A stretch of DNA of 64,000 nt from Maridesulfovibrio sp. (lineage in GTDB: Bacteria > Desulfobacterota > Desulfovibrionia > Desulfovibrionales > Desulfovibrionaceae): assembly GCF_963667685.1 (NCBI RefSeq), contig NZ_OY763930.1, forward strand, positions 1,843,501 through 1,907,500, given 5' to 3'. Positions 8,348-26,303 of the stretch are shown here, piece by piece. A model generated the notes under the pieces. The model was not told the DNA's origin and searched no databases. It saw only the letters and a list, made by a program, of their open reading frames with translations. The position numbers and the translations under genes were made by a program. Positions within the stretch are counted from its first letter, which is position 1. Each line of letters starts with the position of its first letter.

Positions 8348-11300
8348 ATGTCTGAACCAGTCACCGTTCCTTTGACCCATGCGGAAAAGCGTATCTATTT
8401 TACCCAGAAGTTGTACCCGGAGTCATCCATGTGGAATGCCCCAGTCTCCTTGCGTCTGGCACAGGGTGATAAAAATATCCTTAAAAAAGCAGCTCTTCTT
8501 GCAATCGATAATATTCCCGGTCTGCATGTTGTGTTCAGTGAAAAAGACGGCCAACCTGTAAAGTTCATTGATAACAGCCTTGGACCTTCCATAGAGCTGC
8601 TTGATTTCAGGGAAGGCGGTGAGAAGTCTTATCTGGAGTGGGCAGAGCAGCAGGCTAAGGTTAAGACCACCATGCTGGATTGCCTTCCGTATAGTGTCTC
8701 GGTGGCCGACATCGGGTCCGGCATTGTCTATATTTATTTCAAAGGGCATCATATAGCCATTGACGGTGGTGGAATTGATTATTTTTTCCGGAGTATTCTG
8801 CTGGCCTACGAAGCTCTTAAAGATGGCGGAGAAGTCAGATTTGATCCTGTCCCTGGGCTTGATGCTGCGTACAAAGATGAGCAGGATTACCTTGAATCTC
8901 AACAGTGCGTGGAAGACAGCAGCTATTGGAATTCAAAGTTCACCACTTATCCGGACCCTATGGACATAACCGGAAAGGTGTCGTCCGCTTCTCGTGAACT
9001 TGAGTTTTACAACTATTTATTTTCCAGAAAGACCTCACGTGAACTTCTCGCCTTCTGTTCGGAAAACAGAGTTTCCCCTTTCCGGGTTGTGCTGGCGGCA
9101 ATATCTGCTGTCCTTTCCCGGACCATGCGCCGTGAGGATATTGTTTTCGGGACCGGGATTGCCAACCGCTGTCCTGAGGGACTTGCTGATTCAGTTGGAA
9201 TGTACGTCAACACTTGCGCCCTTAGAATGCAGGTTGAGCCGGGAATCTCTTTCGGCGAGCTGATTAAGTCTGCCAGCAGCACAGTAAGGGAATGTATCAG
9301 CCACGGCCGCTATCCTTATGATAAATTAGCAGCTGATATCCGCGAAAGGAGCGGGGATGTACCGGACTTGATGGCTTGCACGCTGGTAGAGTTTGTGGGC
9401 AAAAAAATGCCGGATTATGCTGAGTCGATTTTGCACAATTACGGAGAATCTCTTGTTGCTCTGACGGCTTTCATAACCTTCCCCCGCCTTGACGACCTGA
9501 AGAAAAATAAAATCAGCATGAGGCTGGCTTACCAGAAAGCCGTGTTTGAGCAGTGGCAGGTCAAATCTCTGGCCGCATATGTTGAGAAAGCGGTTTTGAA
9601 CGGTATCCGCAACCCTGAAACTCCCGTTTCTCGCCTGGATTTTATGCCCGCCACGGAGATTGATAAGGTACTAAATGATTTTAATGACATAAGAGGAGAC
9701 TGGGAGGTCGAAACCACTCTGAATGAATGCGTTGACAAGACCGTCAGGCGTTTTCCGGGGCGTAGAGCGGTTGTACACCGCGGACGGTCTCTGACTTATG
9801 CTGAACTAGATGCCCATGCAAATTCTCTTGCCCGAAACCTTCAGGAACAGGGGGCCGGACCGGGTACGGTCGTAGGGCTTCTCGCCGATCGTTCCATCGA
9901 ATTGATTGTTGCACAATTGGCTATTCTAAAGACCGGGGCGGCTTTCATGCCTATTGATACCAGTTACCCGGAAGAGCGGATAAGATTCATGCTCGATGAT
10001 ATTTCTGCTCCCCTTGTTGTTACCCAGTCACGTTTTGTGGATCAGATTAATATTGAAAAGGTGAATGTTGTGGATATGGACCACCCGGAAGCCTATTCAC
10101 CAGATTGTTCCGCATTGGAAACATTCTGTTCTCCCGGAGATTTATGCTGCGTTGTCTATACTTCCGGTTCTACGGGTACACCGAAAGGTGTTCTGTTGGA
10201 ACACAGGGGAATCTGTAATATTGTAAACGGGGTAATGCATACGCAGGGCGTCAATGAAGATGACCGCATTGCAAAGCATGCCAGTTTCTCTTTTGATGCC
10301 AGCCTGTTGGAAATTTTTCTCGGTTTTTTCTGCGGCGGTGAAGTGCATATCATTCCCGATGAAATCCGCCTCTCCTTAAGTTCACTTAACGAGTATTACA
10401 GGGCCAATGGCATAACATGGACCTTCCTGACCACCCAGTTGGGTGAGCAGTTCATGAATTTTGTGGAAGATTCATCGCTTAGGGTTCTGAACGTCGGCGG
10501 GGAAAAACTGCGCACTTTCAATCCCGGTAATTCTTCGGTCAGAAACGGTTATGGTCCCACGGAATGCTCTATTTATACCACCCATCACGAAGTTTCAGAG
10601 TGGGCGGAGAACATTCCCATAGGCAGGCCATTCCCGAATTATTCGGTGTACATTCTTGATAAATATGACAATCCGCAGCCTCCGGGATATGGCGGGGAAT
10701 TGTGCATCTACGGTCCCGGTGTTGCGCGGGGCTATCACAAAAGGCCGGAAAAGACTTCGGAATGTTTTGTGCCATGTCCCTTTAAGCCGGGGGAGACTAT
10801 GTACCGTTCCGGCGACCTTGCCTCCTGGACCCCGGAAGGGGAGATCCTGCATCTTGGGCGTATCGACAGACAGGTGAAGCTGCGCGGGTTCCGCATTGAA
10901 TTGGGAGAGATAGAAAACGCGATCCTCGCGGTTGACGGCATATGTGACGCCGCGGTGGTCGATTACAAAGACAGCCGCGGTCACGTTTATCTTTGCGGAT
11001 ATTTTTGCGGATCGGTTGAGGTGGATAGCGTACTTGAAAAACTGGAAGATAAACTTCCTGAATTCATGGTTCCTTCCTATATGATCAAGTTGGACTGTCT
11101 GCCGCTTAACCCTAACGACAAGGTCGATCGCAAGCAGTTGCCGGAACCGGATATCACTGAAAAGTCTGCTGAAGAATATGTAGCTCCGGGAACTGAATTG
11201 GAGCAGGCATTGGCTGATATCTGGGGTGAAGCCCTAGACCGGGCAAAGGTCAGCGCAAAGGCTGATTTTTTCAAGTCCGGTGGAGATTCTCTGAAGGCGG

Positions 11301-14300
11301 TTGCCTTACAGGTGATTATTTCTAAAAAGCTGAAGCGCGACGTTGAACTATCGGCAATATTTGAGCACCCCTCTCCGCGCTTGATGGCAGCCATGCTTGA
11401 AAATACTGAGGGCGGAGTAAATGAAAAAATTCAGCCCGCGCCGACAATGGAATATTATCCGGCAACGATATCGCAACAGCAGCTTTTTCTGCTTAACCGG
11501 ATGAAGGGAATCGGGACCGCTTATAACATGCCATTTTGTATCCGGCTGGAAGGTCCGCTGGATAGTAAAAAACTTTCGACGGCCTTACTTACTATGCTGG
11601 AACGGCATGAATCCCTGCGCAGTGCATTTGAAATTATAGGCGGACGTTGTGTGCAGCGGGTGTTTGATAAAGTGTACCTCAAGCTTGATTTTGTAAACAC
11701 CTCCTCTGATGATCCTGCACAATTCGGAGCCGGGTTTATCCGTCCGTTTGACCTTTCTGCTCCACCGCTCATGCGTGCCAAGCTGGTTTCCTATGATTCG
11801 GAACTGCACTGGTTGCTGCTGGATTTTCATCATATTGCTTTTGACGGAGTTTCCACCGGAGTTTTTCTGGAAGAGCTTTTCGCTCTTTATCAGGGTGCGA
11901 AGCTTGAGCCGTTGCCTTTTCAGCATAAAGATTTCGCTTTTTGGGAAGCGGAACGCCGGGAAGAAAACGAGGCACGGCACAAAAAGTTCTGGACCGAACT
12001 TTTTGAAACAGTTCCCGAAGCGGAGCTGCCCACAGACCTGCCGCGTCCCTCGCATCAGGATTTTGCGGGTGAATCGTACCGACATTTTCTAGAGTTTAGG
12101 CTGAGTGATAAGCTGAGGGCATTGGCTAAAGAACATGGGGCCACGCTGCACCATGTGTTCATGTCAGCTATCGGCATTCTGTTGGGCCGCTGGTCCGGTA
12201 GTGAGGATGTTTGTCTCGGAACCAGCATGAGTGGCCGGGACCGCGCCGGGACTAATGGATTAGTAGGTATGTTCGTACGCACACTGCCTGCCCGCATTCG
12301 GCCGCAGGGAGAGCTGCCTTTCAGCGGACTGCTGGCGGAAACACGCAAGCAGATACTTTCCATTCACGAGCACGCTGAATATCCTATCAGCAGTCTTTAT
12401 GAACATCTGGGCGTGAATCGTGGGCCGGGCCGTCACCCGCTTTTCGATGTGAACTTTGTTTCGCGAAATACCGGGGCCAGCAACCATTATAAGCTGAACG
12501 GAGTCAGTGCTGATGTGGGTATGCTGGAATTGAATACCGCGAAATTCGATATTTCCATTGCACTTGGGGATGACGGGGACAATCTGGTTCTGGATGTCGA
12601 TTACCGTAGTTCTCTTTACCGCAATGAAACCATCGCGCGAATGATCGGACATCTCTGCCGTATATTGGATGTTGTCGGTGATGAACCGGAAACCATGCTT
12701 AAGGATATCGATATCCTGCTGCCCGAGGAGCGGGACAGCCTGCTTAATGATTTCAACCCGGCGGCGACAGAACCGCCCCGGTGGCCGACTGTTTGCCATG
12801 CCATTGCACAACATGCCGCCGAAAAACCGGATCATATTGCGGTGCATGCCGAGGATGGAACTCTGACTTATGCCGAGCTGGATAGGCTGTCCAGCAGGGC
12901 CGCCCGAGCGATTGCGCAGAACGGCGGCGGGAAGGATAAAATAATTGCAGTGGTTGCGGCCCGATCCATCTGGTCGGTTGCGGGGATGCTTGCTGCTCTG
13001 AAGTCAGGTTCAGCTTATGTGGGACTGGATACCGCATATCCCCCGGACCGGGTGCAGTTTATCCTTGAGGACACTGCGGCCCCCTGTGTGCTGGGCACAA
13101 AAGAACAGCTTGCTGGTATCGAACATGGTTGCACGGCCATTGCCATGGACGGACCGCTCCCGGAAGACGACAGTGATCCCGGTCTTGCCGCCGGCGGTGA
13201 TGCGCTGGCCTACTGCATTTTCACCTCCGGCTCCACAGGCAAGCCCAAAGGAGTACTCATCGAGCATCATTCAATGGTCAACTTCATTGACTGGTATGCC
13301 ACACATCATTGCATGGACAGCAATTCAGGTTGCGCCGCCTTTGCCGCCTTCAGTTTTGACGTCTCGGTGGTGCAGGTTTTTGCCCCGCTGGTTTCAGGTT
13401 CCACCCTGCATGTCATTCCAGAAGATCTGCGCCGTTCCCCCACTGATCTTGATGCGTATTTCAATGAACACAAAATCAGCCATGCCCATTTTCCGACCCA
13501 GTTCGCGGAGCAGTACATGCGCATTTGCGACATGGACAGTCTGCGTTATCTGATTGTGGGCGGGGACCGTTTACGTTCTTACAGGCTGGGTAATTTCAGG
13601 CTGACCAACGAGTACGGTCCCAGTGAAACAACCATGGCCTGCCTGAGCTATGATGTACCGAAGATCATGTCCAAGCCGCCAATCGGCAACCCGGTTGCCA
13701 ATACCCGGATTTATATTCTGGATGAGCGGGACCGACTTTGCCCGATCGGTGTGCCCGGAGAAATATGTGTCTCCGGTTCCGGGGTAGGGCGTGGTTACCT
13801 GAACCGTAAGGAATTGACGGATAAACATTTTACTTCCGATCCTTTTGTTCCGGGCCGGCGGATGTTTCGCACCGGGGATAAAGGGTGCTGGCTCCCAGAC
13901 GGGACCGTGGATTTTATCGGTCGTATGGATTTTCAGGTCAAAATCCGTGGCTACCGTATTGAACCGGGAGAGATCGAATCCTGCTTGAGGAAATTTGATT
14001 CTGTTCAGGATTGCGTCGTGGTTCCACTGGATGAACCGGGCGGAAATAAAGTGCTGGCCGCGTATCTTTGCGCTGCACAGGAACTTGATTCTTCTGAAAT
14101 CCGTTCTATGCTTAAACGGGAATTACCAGAGTACATGGTCCCGGCCCATGTGGTTCAGCTGGAAAAATTCCCTTTGAACCGCAATGGTAAGGTTGACCGC
14201 ACAAAACTGCCCCGCCCGGAAGTTGCCGGACCCTCAACCGGACCGTTTGAACCACGCAATCACAAGGAAGAACGCATAGCCAAGGCTTGGGAAAAGGTTC

Positions 14301-16135
14301 TCGGACATCGCGGCTTCGGCCTTTACGATTCCTTTTTCGATATCGGCGGGGATTCCCTGAGCGCAATAGGTCTGCTGGCTGAGTTGAGTGATTCTTATGA
14401 CATCAGTGCTTCGGACCTCTTCGCTCATACCTCAATTGCCGATCAGGCCGCAAACTTCCGGGATGCGGAAGTCGGGCGTTCGGCAAGGTTGTTGCGGCTT
14501 AAAGAACTTGCCAAAGCTCCGGCTGAAGATGAGTTCATAAATGACCAGATTGCGGCTTATGCCGCTGCTTGCGAATTGGACCGCGAGCTGGATACTGAAA
14601 CAGTGCGTGAACCTGAGCACCTGCTTCTGACCGGGGCCACCGGAACACTGGGTATTTACCTGTTGCGGGAGCTGCTGCAAAGCACCAAAGCAAAAGTTAC
14701 TGCTATTGTCCGCGCAGTGGATGACCATGCCGCTCAAAAGCGTCTTGCTGATTTTTATCTGGAACGGTTCGGAAGTTCGCTTGAAGATGACGGCAGGGAA
14801 CGGGTTGAAATTCTGGCCGGAGACCTTGGCCGCGATGATTTCGGGCTATCTGCTCAGTCTTTTGAACGTCTTGCCGGAGATGTTGATGCTATCCTGCATT
14901 CCGCAGCCCTGACCAGCCATTATGGAGATTGGGAGGTTTTTGAGACAGCAAACGTGACCAGTGTGAAAAATCTGGTCGCCTTCGCCCGCCGGGGCCGGGA
15001 GAAAGCGGTCCACCATATCTCGACCACCTCAATCGGCAGCGGGGATGTGGAAGGGCGCAACCGTATCCTTTTCACGGAATTTGACGTTGATCTGGGACAG
15101 AAACCCGGCAACCTCTATGTGCGTTCCAAGCTTGAGGCTGAAATTCTGCTTGAAAAATACCGGGCTGAAGGTCTGGCAGTCAATGTCTACCGCGCCGGGA
15201 ATATCACCTGCGATTCACAGACCGGGGTTTTTCAGAGCAATGTTGAAGATAATGCCTTTTATCAGCAGTTGCGCTGCTATGTTAACCTCGGTGCAGCACC
15301 GGACCTTACTGATTCCCGCAATATGTCTTATGTGGACCAGTCGGCGCAGGCAATTGTCGCGGCCCTGATTCGTCCCGGCGTACTCGGACAGACATTCCAT
15401 ATCCACAATCCGCATTTGATGAGTCTTTCCAAAGCCCTTGCGGATGAAAGTCTGGGTCTGCGCATTGAGCGGATGGAGTTTGATGAGTTTATCGAATTTG
15501 TGGCCCGCCATGCCGGGTGCGTTGGATTCGATACCTATGTTGAGCGGCTGCTGGTTCATTTGGGCTGGCAGGACTGGCTGACAAATTCCGGGTCAACTTC
15601 CGCACAGGTTCGGGTGGACCGTTCCGCCGAATTGCTCGGACGTTGCGGATTTGTTTGGAAAGAGCCCCGTCCGCAGGATCTGGCCCAGTTTGTTAAAAAG
15701 GCCCTCGAAGACAGGATTGCCGATCTGCGCAAAACAACATTCAGCATTTTGAGCTTAGATGCTCTTGAAGCCGTAGCCTCACGTATTAAACCTGCCTATT
15801 ACCCGGAGGGAGGATTGATTCAGCAGGAAAATTCTGAACTCGATCAGGTCAGCCTGATAATGGACGGTATGGTAGAAGTTTACCGCCACAGCGCATTGGG
15901 CTGGGTCGGAACTCTTAGGGTTGACAGTTCCGGGGCCTGCTTCGGTGAAGGCGGCGTTCTGGATGGTGGAAAGTCAGGAAACTCGGTGGAAGCCATTGAC
16001 CCAAGCTTCGTCTTTCACTTCTCCATAGAAGATATTCGTAAGTTGGTTATGGATTACCCGCAGCTGGGCCTGGTTCTGCTCAAGCTTTCCAGCCTTAAAA
16101 GGGAACGGGCTGAGCGTCTGTTCATTTCCATGTAA
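8348..16135 (+). CDS. Two-module NRPS with terminal reductase and C-terminal cNMP-binding domain
   Basis: A 2595-residue non-ribosomal peptide synthetase. Domains in order: condensation C1 (about 8-440, HHIAIDG at 134-140); adenylation A1 (460-960, core A3 at 604-614, YGPTE, GRIDRQVKLRG, A10 Lys925); carrier PCP1 (GGDSL, phosphopantetheine Ser981); C2 (1060-1490, HHIAFDG at 1161-1167); A2 (1510-1985, A3 at 1626-1635, Lys1948); PCP2 (Ser2003); thioester reductase (2090-2450, NAD(P) loop GATGTLG at 2096-2102, catalytic Y2257-x3-K2261). A Crp-like cyclic-nucleotide-binding fold follows (about 2475-2595). All catalytic motifs look intact. The reductase should release the product as an aldehyde or alcohol. 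The leading C1 suggests the first residue is N-acylated. In the last domain FGE is kept at 2532-2534, but the Arg that holds the cyclic phosphate is Gly, so its ligand is uncertain. No thioesterase, epimerase or phosphopantetheinyl transferase is present nearby. Confidence 0.95.
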   Translation: MSEPVTVPLTHAEKRIYFTQKLYPESSMWNAPVSLRLAQGDKNILKKAALLAIDNIPGLHVVFSEKDGQPVKFIDNSLGPSIELLDFREGGEKSYLEWAEQQAKVKTTMLDCLPYSVSVADIGSGIVYIYFKGHHIAIDGGGIDYFFRSILLAYEALKDGGEVRFDPVPGLDAAYKDEQDYLESQQCVEDSSYWNSKFTTYPDPMDITGKVSSASRELEFYNYLFSRKTSRELLAFCSENRVSPFRVVLAAISAVLSRTMRREDIVFGTGIANRCPEGLADSVGMYVNTCALRMQVEPGISFGELIKSASSTVRECISHGRYPYDKLAADIRERSGDVPDLMACTLVEFVGKKMPDYAESILHNYGESLVALTAFITFPRLDDLKKNKISMRLAYQKAVFEQWQVKSLAAYVEKAVLNGIRNPETPVSRLDFMPATEIDKVLNDFNDIRGDWEVETTLNECVDKTVRRFPGRRAVVHRGRSLTYAELDAHANSLARNLQEQGAGPGTVVGLLADRSIELIVAQLAILKTGAAFMPIDTSYPEERIRFMLDDISAPLVVTQSRFVDQINIEKVNVVDMDHPEAYSPDCSALETFCSPGDLCCVVYTSGSTGTPKGVLLEHRGICNIVNGVMHTQGVNEDDRIAKHASFSFDASLLEIFLGFFCGGEVHIIPDEIRLSLSSLNEYYRANGITWTFLTTQLGEQFMNFVEDSSLRVLNVGGEKLRTFNPGNSSVRNGYGPTECSIYTTHHEVSEWAENIPIGRPFPNYSVYILDKYDNPQPPGYGGELCIYGPGVARGYHKRPEKTSECFVPCPFKPGETMYRSGDLASWTPEGEILHLGRIDRQVKLRGFRIELGEIENAILAVDGICDAAVVDYKDSRGHVYLCGYFCGSVEVDSVLEKLEDKLPEFMVPSYMIKLDCLPLNPNDKVDRKQLPEPDITEKSAEEYVAPGTELEQALADIWGEALDRAKVSAKADFFKSGGDSLKAVALQVIISKKLKRDVELSAIFEHPSPRLMAAMLENTEGGVNEKIQPAPTMEYYPATISQQQLFLLNRMKGIGTAYNMPFCIRLEGPLDSKKLSTALLTMLERHESLRSAFEIIGGRCVQRVFDKVYLKLDFVNTSSDDPAQFGAGFIRPFDLSAPPLMRAKLVSYDSELHWLLLDFHHIAFDGVSTGVFLEELFALYQGAKLEPLPFQHKDFAFWEAERREENEARHKKFWTELFETVPEAELPTDLPRPSHQDFAGESYRHFLEFRLSDKLRALAKEHGATLHHVFMSAIGILLGRWSGSEDVCLGTSMSGRDRAGTNGLVGMFVRTLPARIRPQGELPFSGLLAETRKQILSIHEHAEYPISSLYEHLGVNRGPGRHPLFDVNFVSRNTGASNHYKLNGVSADVGMLELNTAKFDISIALGDDGDNLVLDVDYRSSLYRNETIARMIGHLCRILDVVGDEPETMLKDIDILLPEERDSLLNDFNPAATEPPRWPTVCHAIAQHAAEKPDHIAVHAEDGTLTYAELDRLSSRAARAIAQNGGGKDKIIAVVAARSIWSVAGMLAALKSGSAYVGLDTAYPPDRVQFILEDTAAPCVLGTKEQLAGIEHGCTAIAMDGPLPEDDSDPGLAAGGDALAYCIFTSGSTGKPKGVLIEHHSMVNFIDWYATHHCMDSNSGCAAFAAFSFDVSVVQVFAPLVSGSTLHVIPEDLRRSPTDLDAYFNEHKISHAHFPTQFAEQYMRICDMDSLRYLIVGGDRLRSYRLGNFRLTNEYGPSETTMACLSYDVPKIMSKPPIGNPVANTRIYILDERDRLCPIGVPGEICVSGSGVGRGYLNRKELTDKHFTSDPFVPGRRMFRTGDKGCWLPDGTVDFIGRMDFQVKIRGYRIEPGEIESCLRKFDSVQDCVVVPLDEPGGNKVLAAYLCAAQELDSSEIRSMLKRELPEYMVPAHVVQLEKFPLNRNGKVDRTKLPRPEVAGPSTGPFEPRNHKEERIAKAWEKVLGHRGFGLYDSFFDIGGDSLSAIGLLAELSDSYDISASDLFAHTSIADQAANFRDAEVGRSARLLRLKELAKAPAEDEFINDQIAAYAAACELDRELDTETVREPEHLLLTGATGTLGIYLLRELLQSTKAKVTAIVRAVDDHAAQKRLADFYLERFGSSLEDDGRERVEILAGDLGRDDFGLSAQSFERLAGDVDAILHSAALTSHYGDWEVFETANVTSVKNLVAFARRGREKAVHHISTTSIGSGDVEGRNRILFTEFDVDLGQKPGNLYVRSKLEAEILLEKYRAEGLAVNVYRAGNITCDSQTGVFQSNVEDNAFYQQLRCYVNLGAAPDLTDSRNMSYVDQSAQAIVAALIRPGVLGQTFHIHNPHLMSLSKALADESLGLRIERMEFDEFIEFVARHAGCVGFDTYVERLLVHLGWQDWLTNSGSTSAQVRVDRSAELLGRCGFVWKEPRPQDLAQFVKKALEDRIADLRKTTFSILSLDALEAVASRIKPAYYPEGGLIQQENSELDQVSLIMDGMVEVYRHSALGWVGTLRVDSSGACFGEGGVLDGGKSGNSVEAIDPSFVFHFSIEDIRKLVMDYPQLGLVLLKLSSLKRERAERLFISM

Positions 16136-16156: not shown

Positions 16157-17944
16157 ATGAATACAATAGCAATGGGTGCCCGCCACAGTGGGCTTCTTGA
16201 CCGCAAGTACCGAGAGTTCTTTATCCCGACCATACTCATGTCTATGACGACAACCATGTCCATTGTGGTGGACAGCATTATCGTGGGCAATATGCTGGGT
16301 GCGGACGCTCTGGCAGCAGTCAATCTGGCTCTTCCGGTTATGATGGTCTACACCTCGGTAGCGGTAATGCTGGGTTTCGGTGCGGCAACCATAATATCTG
16401 TCTCATTCGGCAAGCGGCAGACCGGTTATGCCGGAGAAATATTCAGCAGTGCCATTGTGGGCATGCTGGCTATAAGTCTGCTTCTTGTTATAGGGCAGAG
16501 TCTCTATCTGGAGTCAATTACCAATATATTGACTAAAGAGCCATCGCTGCGACCGTTGGTCTATGATTTTCTGGAAGAGCTTGTTTACGGCGCGCCGTTG
16601 ATTATCCTGCCGCTGGGGTTGGTTTACAGTCTGCGGGCTGACGGATGGGTGAAGATGGCCTCGGCCATGCTTATCACTTCCAATCTGGTTAACCTTGCAT
16701 TGGACATGCTTTACATAGGGCCTTTGGGTATGGGCATTTCCGGTTCATCACTGGCGACTGTTTCCGGTTATGCTGTGGGCGGACTGTTTTTCTTTGCGTA
16801 TGCCAAGAGCAGTGAACGCAATCTCGGTTTTGATATGTCAATCTGTATGCATCCGGGGAGACTGCTGAAGAACCTCAAGGAAATAGCGGTGACAGGAGCA
16901 CCGGCGGCTTTGAGCAGTATCCTGATTACCATCAAGATTTTAGCCATCAATATAATGGTTCAGGATGTGGCTGGGAAAACCGGGGTGATTGCTTTTTCGG
17001 TATGCCTGTCCTGTCTTTCTTTTGCTTCCATGTTTATTTCCGGAGCGGCGCAGGCCATGACTCCTATAGTGGGAGTTCTTTACGGGGAAAAGGATTATCT
17101 GGGAGTGCGTTTTGTGGTCAAACGGGCCGCGCAGGTCCTGCTTATTTCAGGTGTGATAGTTGTTCTGCTGCTGGAGTTATTTCCCGGAACCGTGCTGCAT
17201 CTTTTCGGAGTCCGTGCTGCGGAAGTACTCGCCGAAGGAATTCCGGCAGTACGTATTTTTGCGGTCAGCCTCATCGGAACATGTTTCTCTTTTCTGGCCA
17301 TGTTTTATTACATGACCATCGGCAGGAAGCGTATTTCTACTGCCATATCCATCGTGCAGGGAGTGGCGATCCTCGTCCCTTCTGCTTATGTTCTTTCAAA
17401 GATCATGGGGGTCAGCGGCATCTGGGTTTCCTTTTCGCTTGCCGAAGCCGGGACCATGCTCATGGTTTACGGATGCTATCAGCGGATGAAACGCAACAAC
17501 CCCGGAAAATATGACAGCATTCTGTTGCTGGATAAGGGGATCGGCACCGGTGATAACGTCTTTGAAGCAACCGGGACGGATGATGAAGAGAGTGTGGAAG
17601 GGATAATGGAAAGACTGTCGTTGTTTCTGAAAGAAATCGAGTTGCAGGAAACAGTAGCCGCAGATATCCGGGACAGTGTCCGGGAAATGCTTTCCAATGT
17701 CGTCCGACATGCCTATCCCGGCAGTCGAAAAGGATTTGTGGATGTCCGCATTAATGATTGTGACGGAAGACTTATTGTCAACCTGCGGGATAGCGGATTG
17801 CAGTTCGATCCGCAGACAGTCATGCCGGAGAATACTGGCAATAAGTCCGGACTTGGGCTGGTGAAGGACAGAACAAATTCTGTTGAATATTCAAGAATTA
17901 TAGGATTCAACAACACAACCCTGACCTTCGTTTACGGGCAATAA
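16157..17944 (+). CDS. MATE-family exporter fused to an RsbW-type ATPase domain
   Basis: A 595-residue fusion. Residues 15-450 form a MATE multidrug/metabolite antiporter with about twelve membrane helices (MSMTTTMSIVVDSIIVGNML near 30-50 is a typical start). Residues about 480-595 form a soluble GHKL ATPase of the RsbW/SpoIIAB anti-sigma type: N-box with Asn514 (EMLSNVVRHAYP), G1 box RDSGLQFDP with Asp545, and G2 loop KSGLGL at 563-568. These kinases normally phosphorylate STAS-domain partner proteins. The gene lies 21 bases after the NRPS and 28 before the next gene, so the obvious role is export of the NRPS product. The fused domain could gate export or signal its state. Both functions are inferred. 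Confidence 0.92.
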   Translation: MNTIAMGARHSGLLDRKYREFFIPTILMSMTTTMSIVVDSIIVGNMLGADALAAVNLALPVMMVYTSVAVMLGFGAATIISVSFGKRQTGYAGEIFSSAIVGMLAISLLLVIGQSLYLESITNILTKEPSLRPLVYDFLEELVYGAPLIILPLGLVYSLRADGWVKMASAMLITSNLVNLALDMLYIGPLGMGISGSSLATVSGYAVGGLFFFAYAKSSERNLGFDMSICMHPGRLLKNLKEIAVTGAPAALSSILITIKILAINIMVQDVAGKTGVIAFSVCLSCLSFASMFISGAAQAMTPIVGVLYGEKDYLGVRFVVKRAAQVLLISGVIVVLLLELFPGTVLHLFGVRAAEVLAEGIPAVRIFAVSLIGTCFSFLAMFYYMTIGRKRISTAISIVQGVAILVPSAYVLSKIMGVSGIWVSFSLAEAGTMLMVYGCYQRMKRNNPGKYDSILLLDKGIGTGDNVFEATGTDDEESVEGIMERLSLFLKEIELQETVAADIRDSVREMLSNVVRHAYPGSRKGFVDVRINDCDGRLIVNLRDSGLQFDPQTVMPENTGNKSGLGLVKDRTNSVEYSRIIGFNNTTLTFVYGQ

Positions 17945-17972: not shown

Positions 17973-19349
17973 ATGAAACCCATAACACGGGAAGAAGCTC
18001 TGAATCTGGTGCGGGAAGCAAACACCCTTACACGGGATGATATTTCAGTTTTGCAGAAAGTACGCTTGCGCGAGCTGGTCGCCCATGCCCGCGAAAATTC
18101 TGCTCTATATCGTGAAAAATATAAGCATCTGCCCGATAATCCGGCTCTGGAAGACCTTCCTGTTATAACAAAACAGGAATTGACTTCCAATATGCAGAAG
18201 CTGGTTTGCGACCCGGAATTCTCGGAGGAAGAGCTCCAGGCCTACATTGCCGATCTGGATAATTTAGGCATTCCGTTCATGGGTAAGTACAGTGTCTCGA
18301 CGACTTCCGGCACAACAGGGGAACCTTTGCGCATGTTGCGGGATTCACGGCATGTAGCGATTAACGGTTCCATTTTGCAGGTTCGTTTGTTCGAAAGTCC
18401 GCAATTCAAAGATTTTCCGGGTATGATGGATAAGTATGTGCGTTTTGCCAGTGTACTGGCGGGAGGCGGATTCCATGCCGCCTTTATGGCTTTTGAGGGA
18501 CGGCGCAAAATGCTCGAAGCCGAGGGGATAACAGGCAACATGCTGCTGCTTGAGATTGATGATCCGGTGGCGGAAATGGTTCGTAAGCTGAATGAATTTC
18601 AACCGGAAGTTATAACAGGGTATCCTTCGGTCATGTATATTCTCGCAGGGGAGCAGAAAGAAGGGCGTCTCAAAATTTCACCCAAAGCCATTCTTTGTTC
18701 CGCAGAGCAGCTTACCGATGAGATGCGTATTGTTATAGAGCATGAGCTTGGCTGTCCGGTTGGTAATGTTTTTTGCAGTACCGAGGGTGGTGAGGTTGCA
18801 ATCCTTTGCTCACATGGTCATATGCATCTTAATACCGACTGGATTATTGTAGAGCCGATAGATAAGGAAGGAAATCCTGTCCCGGCCGGTGAAATGTCTG
18901 CCGCCATGCTGGTCACCAACCTGACCAACGGAGTCCAGCCGATTATCCGCTACAGAGTGGATGACAGTGTTATCGTGTATGAAGATCAGTGTTCATGCGG
19001 CCTGCCATTTCCTTATGTTGAAATCCTGGGCCGCACAGACGACCTTCCTGAGTTTAGCTGTGCAAACGGTTTTGTACGGTTTTCGCCGATTGTTTTTTCC
19101 AGTGCCGTTATGGATATCCCGGGCATCTCAGTTTACCAGTTTGTCCAGACCGGGCAGGAGTCCCTAACCGTCCGTATTGGTTATCTTGATGGTGCGATAC
19201 CAGAGAAGGTTGACCGTGAAATACATGATGCAGTTTCCAATGTGTTGAGTCAGAACAAATTGGATCATATTTCTTTTAGTATTGTTCGCGGGGCGCCGGT
19301 CAGGGCAAAGAAAGGTAAAAAGATGCGCAGTTATCTGAAGACCTTTTAA
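17973..19349 (+). CDS. CapK/PaaK-type adenylate-forming enzyme
   Basis: A 458-residue member of the phenylacetate-CoA ligase / CapK (coenzyme F390 synthetase-like) family. The AMP-binding loop TTSGTTGEP lies at residues 110-118, the second motif STEGGE near 270, and a Cys-containing loop CSCGLPFPYVEILGRTDDL near 345. Such enzymes adenylate an aromatic or other carboxylic acid and pass it to CoA or another acceptor. It is preceded by AAAGGAG and follows the MATE gene by 28 bases, so it is the third gene of the NRPS operon. It may supply the acyl group used by condensation domain C1, or modify the released product; neither is proven. A terminator follows 80 bases downstream. Confidence 0.85.
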   Translation: MKPITREEALNLVREANTLTRDDISVLQKVRLRELVAHARENSALYREKYKHLPDNPALEDLPVITKQELTSNMQKLVCDPEFSEEELQAYIADLDNLGIPFMGKYSVSTTSGTTGEPLRMLRDSRHVAINGSILQVRLFESPQFKDFPGMMDKYVRFASVLAGGGFHAAFMAFEGRRKMLEAEGITGNMLLLEIDDPVAEMVRKLNEFQPEVITGYPSVMYILAGEQKEGRLKISPKAILCSAEQLTDEMRIVIEHELGCPVGNVFCSTEGGEVAILCSHGHMHLNTDWIIVEPIDKEGNPVPAGEMSAAMLVTNLTNGVQPIIRYRVDDSVIVYEDQCSCGLPFPYVEILGRTDDLPEFSCANGFVRFSPIVFSSAVMDIPGISVYQFVQTGQESLTVRIGYLDGAIPEKVDREIHDAVSNVLSQNKLDHISFSIVRGAPVRAKKGKKMRSYLKTF

Positions 19350-24254: not shown

Positions 24255-26303
24255 ATGAAGTGGTTTGGCAGGAAGAATGTCGAAAGGACGCGGCCTGAAG
24301 AGAATGAGGCTGATTCCGCTGAAGGGGTGGATAACATAACCGAGAGCGTTGCTGATGAAATTTATAACCGTGTTGAATCGGCAGACCTTCCTGCTCATAT
24401 TTTGGATGCGGCCCGTGACGAATGTGAACGCCTTCTCAAGAGCGATAGTGCCTCCCCCGATTTCGCCATTTCACATGCTTATCTGGAATTTATACTTTCC
24501 CTTCCCTGGAATGAGACAACTAAAGATGACCTTGATATTCAAAGGGCTGCAAATATTCTTGATGCCCGCCATTATGGACTGAACAATGTAAAAGAACGAA
24601 TTCTTGAATTCCTTGCAGTTAAGAATCTGCGAAGCCGGATCAGCCCGAACCTTATTATTGTTGATGATGAAATAATTGCCCGCGAGAATCTTTCCATAAT
24701 TTTCGAGCATGAAGGCTTCACCGTGCGCTCTGTTGGTAACGGCCTGGAAGCTGTGTCCGCTATGGAGAAAGAGGTCGCGGATATTGTGATAACTGATTTG
24801 AAAATGGACGGTATGGACGGTCTTGAACTATTGGAAGTGCTTCGTAACCGCTGGCCCGATACCGGGGTGATCATGCTAACCGGCTATGCAACGGTGAAGA
24901 CTGCCGTAGACGCTATGAAGAGAGGCGCCGACCAGTATCTTGGCAAACCGGTCAACCTGAACCGTTTGCGTGAATATGTTCAGGATTTATTAGCGCGTAA
25001 TCAGCGTATCCAGGGCTTACACGGTCCGGTTCTTTGTTTCAGCGGCCCTCCCGGAACAGGAAAAACATCTATCGGAAAGGCCATTGCAGAGTCGCTGGGC
25101 CGCAAGTTTATTACTATTTCTCTGGCCGGGCTGCGTGATGAGTCCGAGTTGCGGGGGCACCGTAGAACTTATGTTGGAGCCATGGCTGGAAGGATATTGC
25201 AGAGTATCCGTAAATCAGGTGTTCGCAACCCGGTTATCATGCTTGATGAGATAGATAAAATTGTACAAAGTTTTCAAGGTGATGCCACCTCTGTCCTTCT
25301 GGAGATGCTTGATCCTCAGCAAAATTCAGGTTTTGTCGATAATTACCTTGGGTTGCCATTCGATCTCTCAGGTGTGTTATTTATAGCCACAGCCAATGTT
25401 GTTGAGCGTATACCGGCCCCCCTGCGCGACAGGATGGAGATGATTGAATTTTCCAGCTACACTCCCGGTGAGAAATTGCAGATTGCGCAGAATTATATGC
25501 TTCCGGAACAATTGCTGAAGCACGGTTTTGCCGCGGATGAAGTATCGCCTTCAGCCGACGCTTTGAGAATGTTGATAGCAGATTACACTCATGAAGCCGG
25601 ATTACGTGGTTTAGATAAACAGATAGCTTCACTTTGCCGTAAAATGGCAAGGCGAAGGCTGGACGGCCGTGCAGAGGAGCGTCCTATAAAAATTTCAGCG
25701 CAGGAATTGCCCGGAATAATGGGGCCGCCTCCCCATTTTAGTACAACAGTTAGCAGTGTCCTTAAATCCGGGGTGGCCACCGGGCTTGTCTGGTCCGAAA
25801 ACGGTGGGGAAGTTATCTTTGTTGAAACTGTGCGCATGCATGGCAGCAAAAATCTTCTGCTGACAGGCTCATTGGGGGAAGTTCTGAGGGAGTCGGCCCA
25901 GACTGCTCTGAGTTTTCTGCGGGCGAATGCAGGCAAATTCGGTATTTCCGAAAATTTCTTTGAGACATCGGATATCCATGTCCATATCCCGTCGGGGGCC
26001 GTTACCAAGGAAGGTCCATCAGCCGGCGTGACTATTGCCGTGGCAATACTTTCTCAGCTGACAGGACGATGCGTCTATCAGGATATGGCTTTCAGCGGTG
26101 AAATATCTTTGCACGGAGATGTACTTCCTGTGGGCGGAGTACGTGAAAAGATTATGGCTGCGGTCCGCTCCGGTGTAAAAACTGTTGTCCTGCCGGAAAA
26201 ATGTGCATCCGCTCTCGATCAGCTCGATAGTGAAGTGCTGGAAGGGTTGGAGATCAGGCTTGTTTCCAGACTGGAAGATGCTCTGGAAGCAGCGTTGACC
26301 TAG
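24255..26303 (+). CDS. Lon-family AAA+ protease with an embedded response-regulator receiver domain
   Basis: A 682-residue protein with an unusual order. Residues about 40-130 match the helical segment that precedes the AAA+ module of Lon (ILDARHYGLNNVKERILEFL). Residues 131-250 are a CheY-like receiver: acidic pair D137-D138, phospho-acceptor Asp181 (ITDLKMDG), conserved Thr in MLTGYA and Lys in LGKPVN. The AAA+ ATPase follows (Walker A GPPGTGKT 264-271, Walker B MLDEID 329-334). The C-terminal S16 protease has catalytic Ser589 (GPSAG) and Lys632, 43 residues apart as in E. coli Lon. The large Lon substrate-binding N-domain is missing. Phosphorylation could therefore gate proteolysis. Its receiver closely resembles that of the adjacent regulator (26300-27643), so the kinase at 27640-29055 probably controls both. 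Confidence 0.93.
   Translation: MKWFGRKNVERTRPEENEADSAEGVDNITESVADEIYNRVESADLPAHILDAARDECERLLKSDSASPDFAISHAYLEFILSLPWNETTKDDLDIQRAANILDARHYGLNNVKERILEFLAVKNLRSRISPNLIIVDDEIIARENLSIIFEHEGFTVRSVGNGLEAVSAMEKEVADIVITDLKMDGMDGLELLEVLRNRWPDTGVIMLTGYATVKTAVDAMKRGADQYLGKPVNLNRLREYVQDLLARNQRIQGLHGPVLCFSGPPGTGKTSIGKAIAESLGRKFITISLAGLRDESELRGHRRTYVGAMAGRILQSIRKSGVRNPVIMLDEIDKIVQSFQGDATSVLLEMLDPQQNSGFVDNYLGLPFDLSGVLFIATANVVERIPAPLRDRMEMIEFSSYTPGEKLQIAQNYMLPEQLLKHGFAADEVSPSADALRMLIADYTHEAGLRGLDKQIASLCRKMARRRLDGRAEERPIKISAQELPGIMGPPPHFSTTVSSVLKSGVATGLVWSENGGEVIFVETVRMHGSKNLLLTGSLGEVLRESAQTALSFLRANAGKFGISENFFETSDIHVHIPSGAVTKEGPSAGVTIAVAILSQLTGRCVYQDMAFSGEISLHGDVLPVGGVREKIMAAVRSGVKTVVLPEKCASALDQLDSEVLEGLEIRLVSRLEDALEAALT

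Follow-up and report, generated by a model that had tools for sequence, protein, structure and literature searches.

A Crp-fold domain at the release end of a nonribosomal peptide synthetase in Maridesulfovibrio and its relatives, with a putative contact role

Why would a nonribosomal peptide synthetase (NRPS) end in a domain of the Crp type, and what could such a domain do there? The question is raised by a stretch of 64,000 nucleotides from Maridesulfovibrio sp. (contig NZ_OY763930.1, positions 1,843,501 to 1,907,500), here called the window, in which an NRPS gene (positions 8348-16135, forward strand, as are the domains and operon genes located below) encodes 2595 residues that end in a domain with the Crp or cyclic nucleotide monophosphate (cNMP)-binding fold, here called the tail. 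To our knowledge, control of assembly-line synthetases lies in their expression and in substrate supply, and we know of no sensor or Crp-fold domain placed after a release domain. A sequence-only reading of this locus had likewise known of no described synthetase with such a tail, and literature searches aimed at an NRPS-Crp fusion gave none, the subscription literature being mostly outside their coverage. Other fused cNMP-fold proteins are already known, e.g., the family 2B encapsulins. As judged from the sequences compared below, the Crp-fold tail on the NRPS is a real building plan common to relatives in other bacteria, with a role that is putative.

A Crp-fold domain after the reductase

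The tail, with its flanking helices, covers residues 2462-2595 (positions 15731-16132, N-terminal edge approximate), as placed by Pfam and a structure model. Within it, the Pfam model cNMP_binding (PF00027, cut-off 27.5 bits) matches residues 2484-2569 (15797-16054), scoring 35.0 bits in the whole protein and 40.3 bits when the query is reduced to the last 151 residues, and the predicted structure, from a weak model (predicted local distance difference test, pLDDT, of 60), matches Crp-family structures. The terminal domain after the reductase thus has the Crp/cNMP fold, as the first reading had claimed. Two further tails were scanned in the same way and passed the same cut-off (40.6 and 30.9 bits for L022 and L023, introduced below). 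No C-terminal helix-turn-helix was found by Pfam, and the protein stops after the last helix of the fold.

Two simpler explanations were rejected. Translation of the open reading frame 8348-16135 gave 2595 residues and no internal stop codon, so that the tail is continuous with the NRPS and does not stem from a second, cNMP-encoding gene reached by stop-codon readthrough. A frameshift fusion or a chance match was discarded on the grounds that the tail is stop-free in six genes of six genomes. Since five further synthetases bear the tail, it is not an assembly accident.

Distribution, origin, and retention of the tail

These five came from the search for other NRPSs with this tail that the first reading had proposed, and together with the window protein they represent two operon types and three families. 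The whole-protein search against 58 kin genomes gave a near full-length match in four: besides the genome of the window, these are three congeneric genomes (G004, G005, and G006), whose synthetases share 33-34% identity with the query from residue 6 or 7 to residue 2591 or 2592. A scan of contigs with the last 251 residues returned 98 pattern matches, of which two were true relatives: L022 from Desulforhopalus vacuolatus (56% identity) and L023 from a metagenome-assembled genome of the Desulfobacteraceae (26%), both hosts belonging to the Thermodesulfobacteriota. The pattern scan of contigs is not sensitive, and further relatives may exist. The tail is rare in the genomes searched, because matches over its whole length were found in only 4 of 348 class genomes and 1 of 395 phylum genomes, two samples that overlap. 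In the class search, 40 of the 44 matching genomes match the cNMP part only, and among loci of this kind from the class and phylum searches L028, L029, and L041 are by eye other cNMP proteins. A phage or plasmid origin was considered and rejected: on viral contigs 15 stretches matched the pattern with no relative among them, phages gave no relative, and the 10 plasmid records were without exception Crp/Fnr regulators from Enterococcus, with 51% of the query covered.

The six synthetases fall into two clades, the window and L022 forming clade 1 and G004, G005, G006, and L023 forming clade 2. Between the clades (window versus G005), identity is 23-43% in the condensation and adenylation domains, 40% in the reductase, and 24% in the tail. 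In a tree of the reductase domains, the six tail bearers lie on one side of a branch with support of 99/96, the outsiders being four reductase domains with no detectable tail (L054, L055, L056, and L057), two of them on long branches. The fusion of tail and reductase therefore likely took place a single time, ahead of the split between the operon types, as far as a tree with only these four outsiders can tell. Within clade 2, L023 and G006 share 78-91% identity per domain despite belonging to different families, which suggests transfer of the synthetase between lineages.

Two pairs had usable synonymous divergence (dS), G005/G006 and L023/G006; the pairs with G004, window/L022, and window/G005 were saturated or nearly so in most domains and were left unused. 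The ratio of nonsynonymous to synonymous rates (omega) for the tail was 0.11 in G005/G006 (0.06-0.18 in the other domains) and 0.10 in L023/G006 (0.05-0.14 in the other domains, with dS near 1). Because an omega of about 0.1, like that of the catalytic domains, is found in both pairs, the tail is under selection for its retention and is not vestigial.

The cyclic-nucleotide pocket and the conserved hairpin

An alignment of the six tails was made that also included E. coli CRP and 11 further cNMP domains from the window's genome. The phosphate-binding cassette of the window tail, FGEGGVLDGGKSGNSVEA (15941-15994), is degenerate, with Ser 2543 in the column of CRP R82; the six tails have S, A, S, A, A, and A there, and the loss of the phosphate-binding Arg that the first reading had noticed holds for all of them (Arg in 0/6). 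Among the 11 other domains, five have the cyclic-phosphate Arg, and a sixth (L063) has an Arg one column off R82, at a position occupied by Lys in the window tail. Both G71 and E72 of CRP are kept in two of the six tails, those of clade 1, and neither is kept in the remaining four. Of the 11 positions named as cAMP contacts in the CAP literature, one is invariant among the tails (S128, as Glu). Over the whole alignment 20 of 134 columns are invariant, so conservation in the pocket is no better than in the rest of the tail. Even within the group of four related clade 2 proteins, the cassette loop is variable. Since the R82 equivalent is missing from six of six tails and the Gly-Glu pair from four of six, classical cAMP or cGMP sensing by the tail is unlikely, and the term "second-messenger sensor" used in the first reading was an overstatement that the alignment does not support.

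One hairpin is conserved: the G-W-x-G-T pattern (GWVGT in the window tail, 15899-15913) is invariant in all six tails, and its Trp is absent from all 11 of the further cNMP domains. The cluster of invariant hairpin residues was tried as proof of an interface and rejected as such, and we treat it as a hint.

Architecture of the synthetase

The order of domains, condensation (C), adenylation (A), carrier (T), C, A, T, and a reductase (R) at the release end, followed by the cNMP fold, was obtained from Pfam matches and motifs (the first C placed by its motif) and agrees with the two-module, reductase-terminated NRPS described initially. The first condensation domain (about residues 1-450, 8348-9697, boundaries approximate) has an intact HHIAIDG motif and is followed by an adenylation domain (9734-11152 by Pfam, end approximate) and a PP-binding carrier domain (residues 953-1017, 11204-11398, by Pfam). 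The second module consists of a condensation domain (residues 1036-1466, 11453-12745, by Pfam) with HHIAFDG intact, an adenylation domain (12794-14191 by Pfam and NCBIfam, boundaries approximate), and a carrier domain (14240-14467, boundaries approximate) with DSFFDIGGDS at residue 1994. The thioester reductase domain (14621-15712, C-terminal edge approximate) contains the NAD(P)-binding TGATGTLG and YVRSK motifs. The HHxxxDG, YGPxE, carrier Ser, NAD(P), and YxxxK motifs were thus all found, by motif scan in both C domains, both A domains, the second T, and R, and by eye for the Ser of the first T; the carrier-motif pattern is too strict and missed both carriers of L022 that Pfam finds.

From this domain order, the reductase would discharge a short and probably N-acylated dipeptide from the synthetase, in the form of an aldehyde or alcohol. 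The adenylation-pocket residues of the window modules were read by eye for product prediction, and those of both modules match no adenylation code known to us. The pocket residues differ between the two clades (by eye, and at the first three positions in the motif scan), which makes one shared product ligand less likely. In clade 2, the second adenylation domain (L016, L018, L020, and L023) has by eye an Asn-like pocket code. Release of peptide aldehydes by reductase domains has been described (PMC7586950). A scan for promoter sites upstream of the gene was uninformative (3 sites versus 1.4 expected, standard deviation 1.3).

Operon surroundings and the exporter-kinase fusion

The first reading had missed that the two genes behind the NRPS encode a MATE-kinase fusion and a PaaK-like ligase. 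The former (16157-17944, 595 residues) is a MATE-type exporter with a C-terminal RsbW-like HATPase_c_2 domain, the NCBIfam MATE models scoring below their cut-offs; the latter (17973-19349, 458 residues) is a PaaK/CapK-like adenylate-forming ligase with Pfam and NCBIfam scores all below cut-offs. The clade 1 operons have this order, in which the NRPS gene is followed by genes for a MATE exporter (HATPase-like at its C-terminal end) and a PaaK-like ligase; all three share a strand and lie 16 to 36 bases apart. In clade 2, an MFS-like exporter gene precedes the NRPS, and a phosphopantetheinyl-transferase-like gene (by eye) lies on the other strand behind the NRPS in G004, G005, and G006, immediately in the first two and with one gene in between in G006.

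HATPase_c_2 scores 46.3 bits on the window exporter, where the N-box and glycine motifs were seen by eye, and 39.9 bits on that of another genome, G026 (cut-off 27.4); in L022 this part is degenerate and has no Pfam match. When the three-row exporter alignment served as the query, full-length matches were confined to the window's genome and G026 among 347 class genomes, and to the window's genome among 395 phylum genomes. In 120 class genomes, the seven other matches were shorter frames of 452-486 residues that matched over the MATE part only. All three MATE-HATPase exporters found (window 16157-17944; L022 10776-12530; L057 11936-13696) lie in reductase-NRPS operons. The operon of G026 reads STAS, a SpoIIE-type PP2C with a HATPase-like end (by eye), reductase-NRPS, phosphopantetheinyl transferase (by eye), PaaK-like ligase, and MATE-HATPase, and its synthetase has no tail. 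The kinase-bearing exporter therefore goes with this type of reductase-NRPS operon, and the tail is a feature of its own that overlaps with it in part.

Further genes were noted as well. In one NRPS operon (L060 8558-11000, L057 1-13696), the preceding STAS and PP2C genes, the latter with the HATPase-like end seen by eye, form a partner-switching set beside a synthetase. Downstream of the Desulforhopalus operon (L022 14319-18110) are an NMT1-like binding protein and a PP2C phosphatase (both by eye) and a free RsbW-like HATPase. In the window, no STAS or PP2C domain was found among 18 other genes scanned with Pfam, a part of its open reading frames; positions 24255-26303 encode a Lon-type protease with a response-regulator receiver domain ahead of its AAA domain.

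Proposed role and alternative explanations

The first reading had left a choice between another ligand and a docking or scaffold function, and this idea has worn well. We lean tentatively toward the latter part of it: at the release end, the domain would make protein contacts that need no ligand. A Crp-type beta-roll that has lost the key cyclic-phosphate contact would have been fused to the reductase, probably in a single event preceding the split of the operon types, and then retained as a protein-contact domain, in which the C-terminal helix or the conserved Trp hairpin may pair two synthetases or hold the reductase by a partner such as the exporter. The contact role is favored because the nucleotide motif is lost and the cassette varies among related proteins whereas the fold is constant. 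Several points weigh against it. Clade 1 keeps the cassette Gly-Glu, and the window tail has the Lys beside the Arg position; this Lys, with the Pfam family name and the FGE of the window protein, would speak for ordinary cAMP or cGMP regulation of the NRPS, which is nonetheless highly improbable given the lack of the Arg82 equivalent in 6/6 tails and of the Glu72 equivalent in 4/6. The clustering of the invariant hairpin residues is by itself not significant (shuffle, P 0.14), the tail model itself is weak (the pLDDT of 60 given above), and the AlphaFold model of reductase plus tail is unusable (pLDDT 40, predicted template modeling score 0.25). A MATE-kinase gene is missing from the clade 2 operons, so the exporter partner would have to differ between clades. 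Identity between the window and L022 is lower in the tail than in the reductase (49% versus 67%). This lower identity would also fit, along with the degenerate cassette, a functionless relic of an accidentally fused Crp-family gene, an explanation to which we give very little credence in view of the omega values in two pairs, the stop-free frames in 6/6 genes, and retention across families. Finally, a tail that lacks R82 may still bind a ligand, as structures of the Crp-fold proteins CprK and PrfA have been solved with ligands other than cAMP.

This last point leads to the main rival, a built-in allosteric sensor in which a non-cyclic-nucleotide ligand (product, precursor, aromatic acid, or peptide) in the Crp pocket would switch the reductase on or off. 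Crp-fold domains readily take other ligands, and we consider this a serious but doubtful alternative, as conservation between clades is no higher in the pocket (1/11 positions invariant) than elsewhere in the tail and the cassette loop is variable even within clade 2. Its fuller version, a Crp-type metabolite sensor whose binding of product or precursor opens or shuts the reductase, gating aldehyde release inside the assembly line and coupled in the window operon to the kinase-bearing exporter, seems unlikely. Less probable still is a partner-switching circuit, in which the tail and the exporter HATPase, with STAS and PP2C proteins, would sense the state of the assembly line or of export. It would account for the confinement of the three MATE-HATPase exporters to reductase-NRPS operons, for the STAS and SpoIIE-type PP2C genes that open the G026 operon, and for the PP2C and RsbW-like genes downstream in L022, but the G026 synthetase lacks the tail, clade 2 operons carry MFS in place of MATE-HATPase, the HATPase part of L022 is degenerate, and the scanned window genes hold neither STAS nor PP2C.

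A conserved tail across operons with different adenylation domains offers a concrete handle on release, dimerization, and export. As a contact domain, the tail would give engineers a new part to use; as a sensor, it would represent a new mode of control over NRPS output. The adjoining exporter-kinase fusion hints that export and signaling are wired together in some clusters.

Comparison with known systems

Among the top NCBIfam scores of the window NRPS are AusA (aureusimine; 1248.4 bits) and MxcG (myxochelin; 896 bits), far below the equivalog cut-offs of 2500 and 2300, respectively; AusA is its top NCBIfam relative, but the score is too low to class the protein as an AusA equivalog. Both matches run through the reductase and end at residues 2381 (AusA) and 2386 (MxcG), and the window NRPS has the Crp-fold tail beyond. 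AusA has the order A-T-C-A-T-R, so that the N-terminal condensation domain of the window protein would be extra.

The tail shares its fold, strand order, and helices with the sensor domains of the Crp/Fnr family (CRP, CprK, PrfA, and GlxR), of which CprK and PrfA are not known to bind cAMP. It differs from them in having no helix-turn-helix and no cyclic-phosphate Arg, and in being fused to an enzyme. An enzyme with a cNMP fold is also seen in aspartate ammonia-lyase-like proteins (enzyme assigned by eye), in which the domain is N-terminal and the enzyme unrelated; two were noted, L071 in the window's genome (G000:C3:498501-501500), which has no cassette Arg, and L041 in G035. The best NCBIfam match of the tail is the family 2B encapsulin (E 2.4e-7, 30 bits, cut-off 400), whose cNMP domain is described as highly variable, with a suggested regulatory role (PMC8346489). 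The encapsulin likewise joins a cNMP-fold domain to a non-regulator linked to biosynthesis, in its case a shell protein and not a synthetase.
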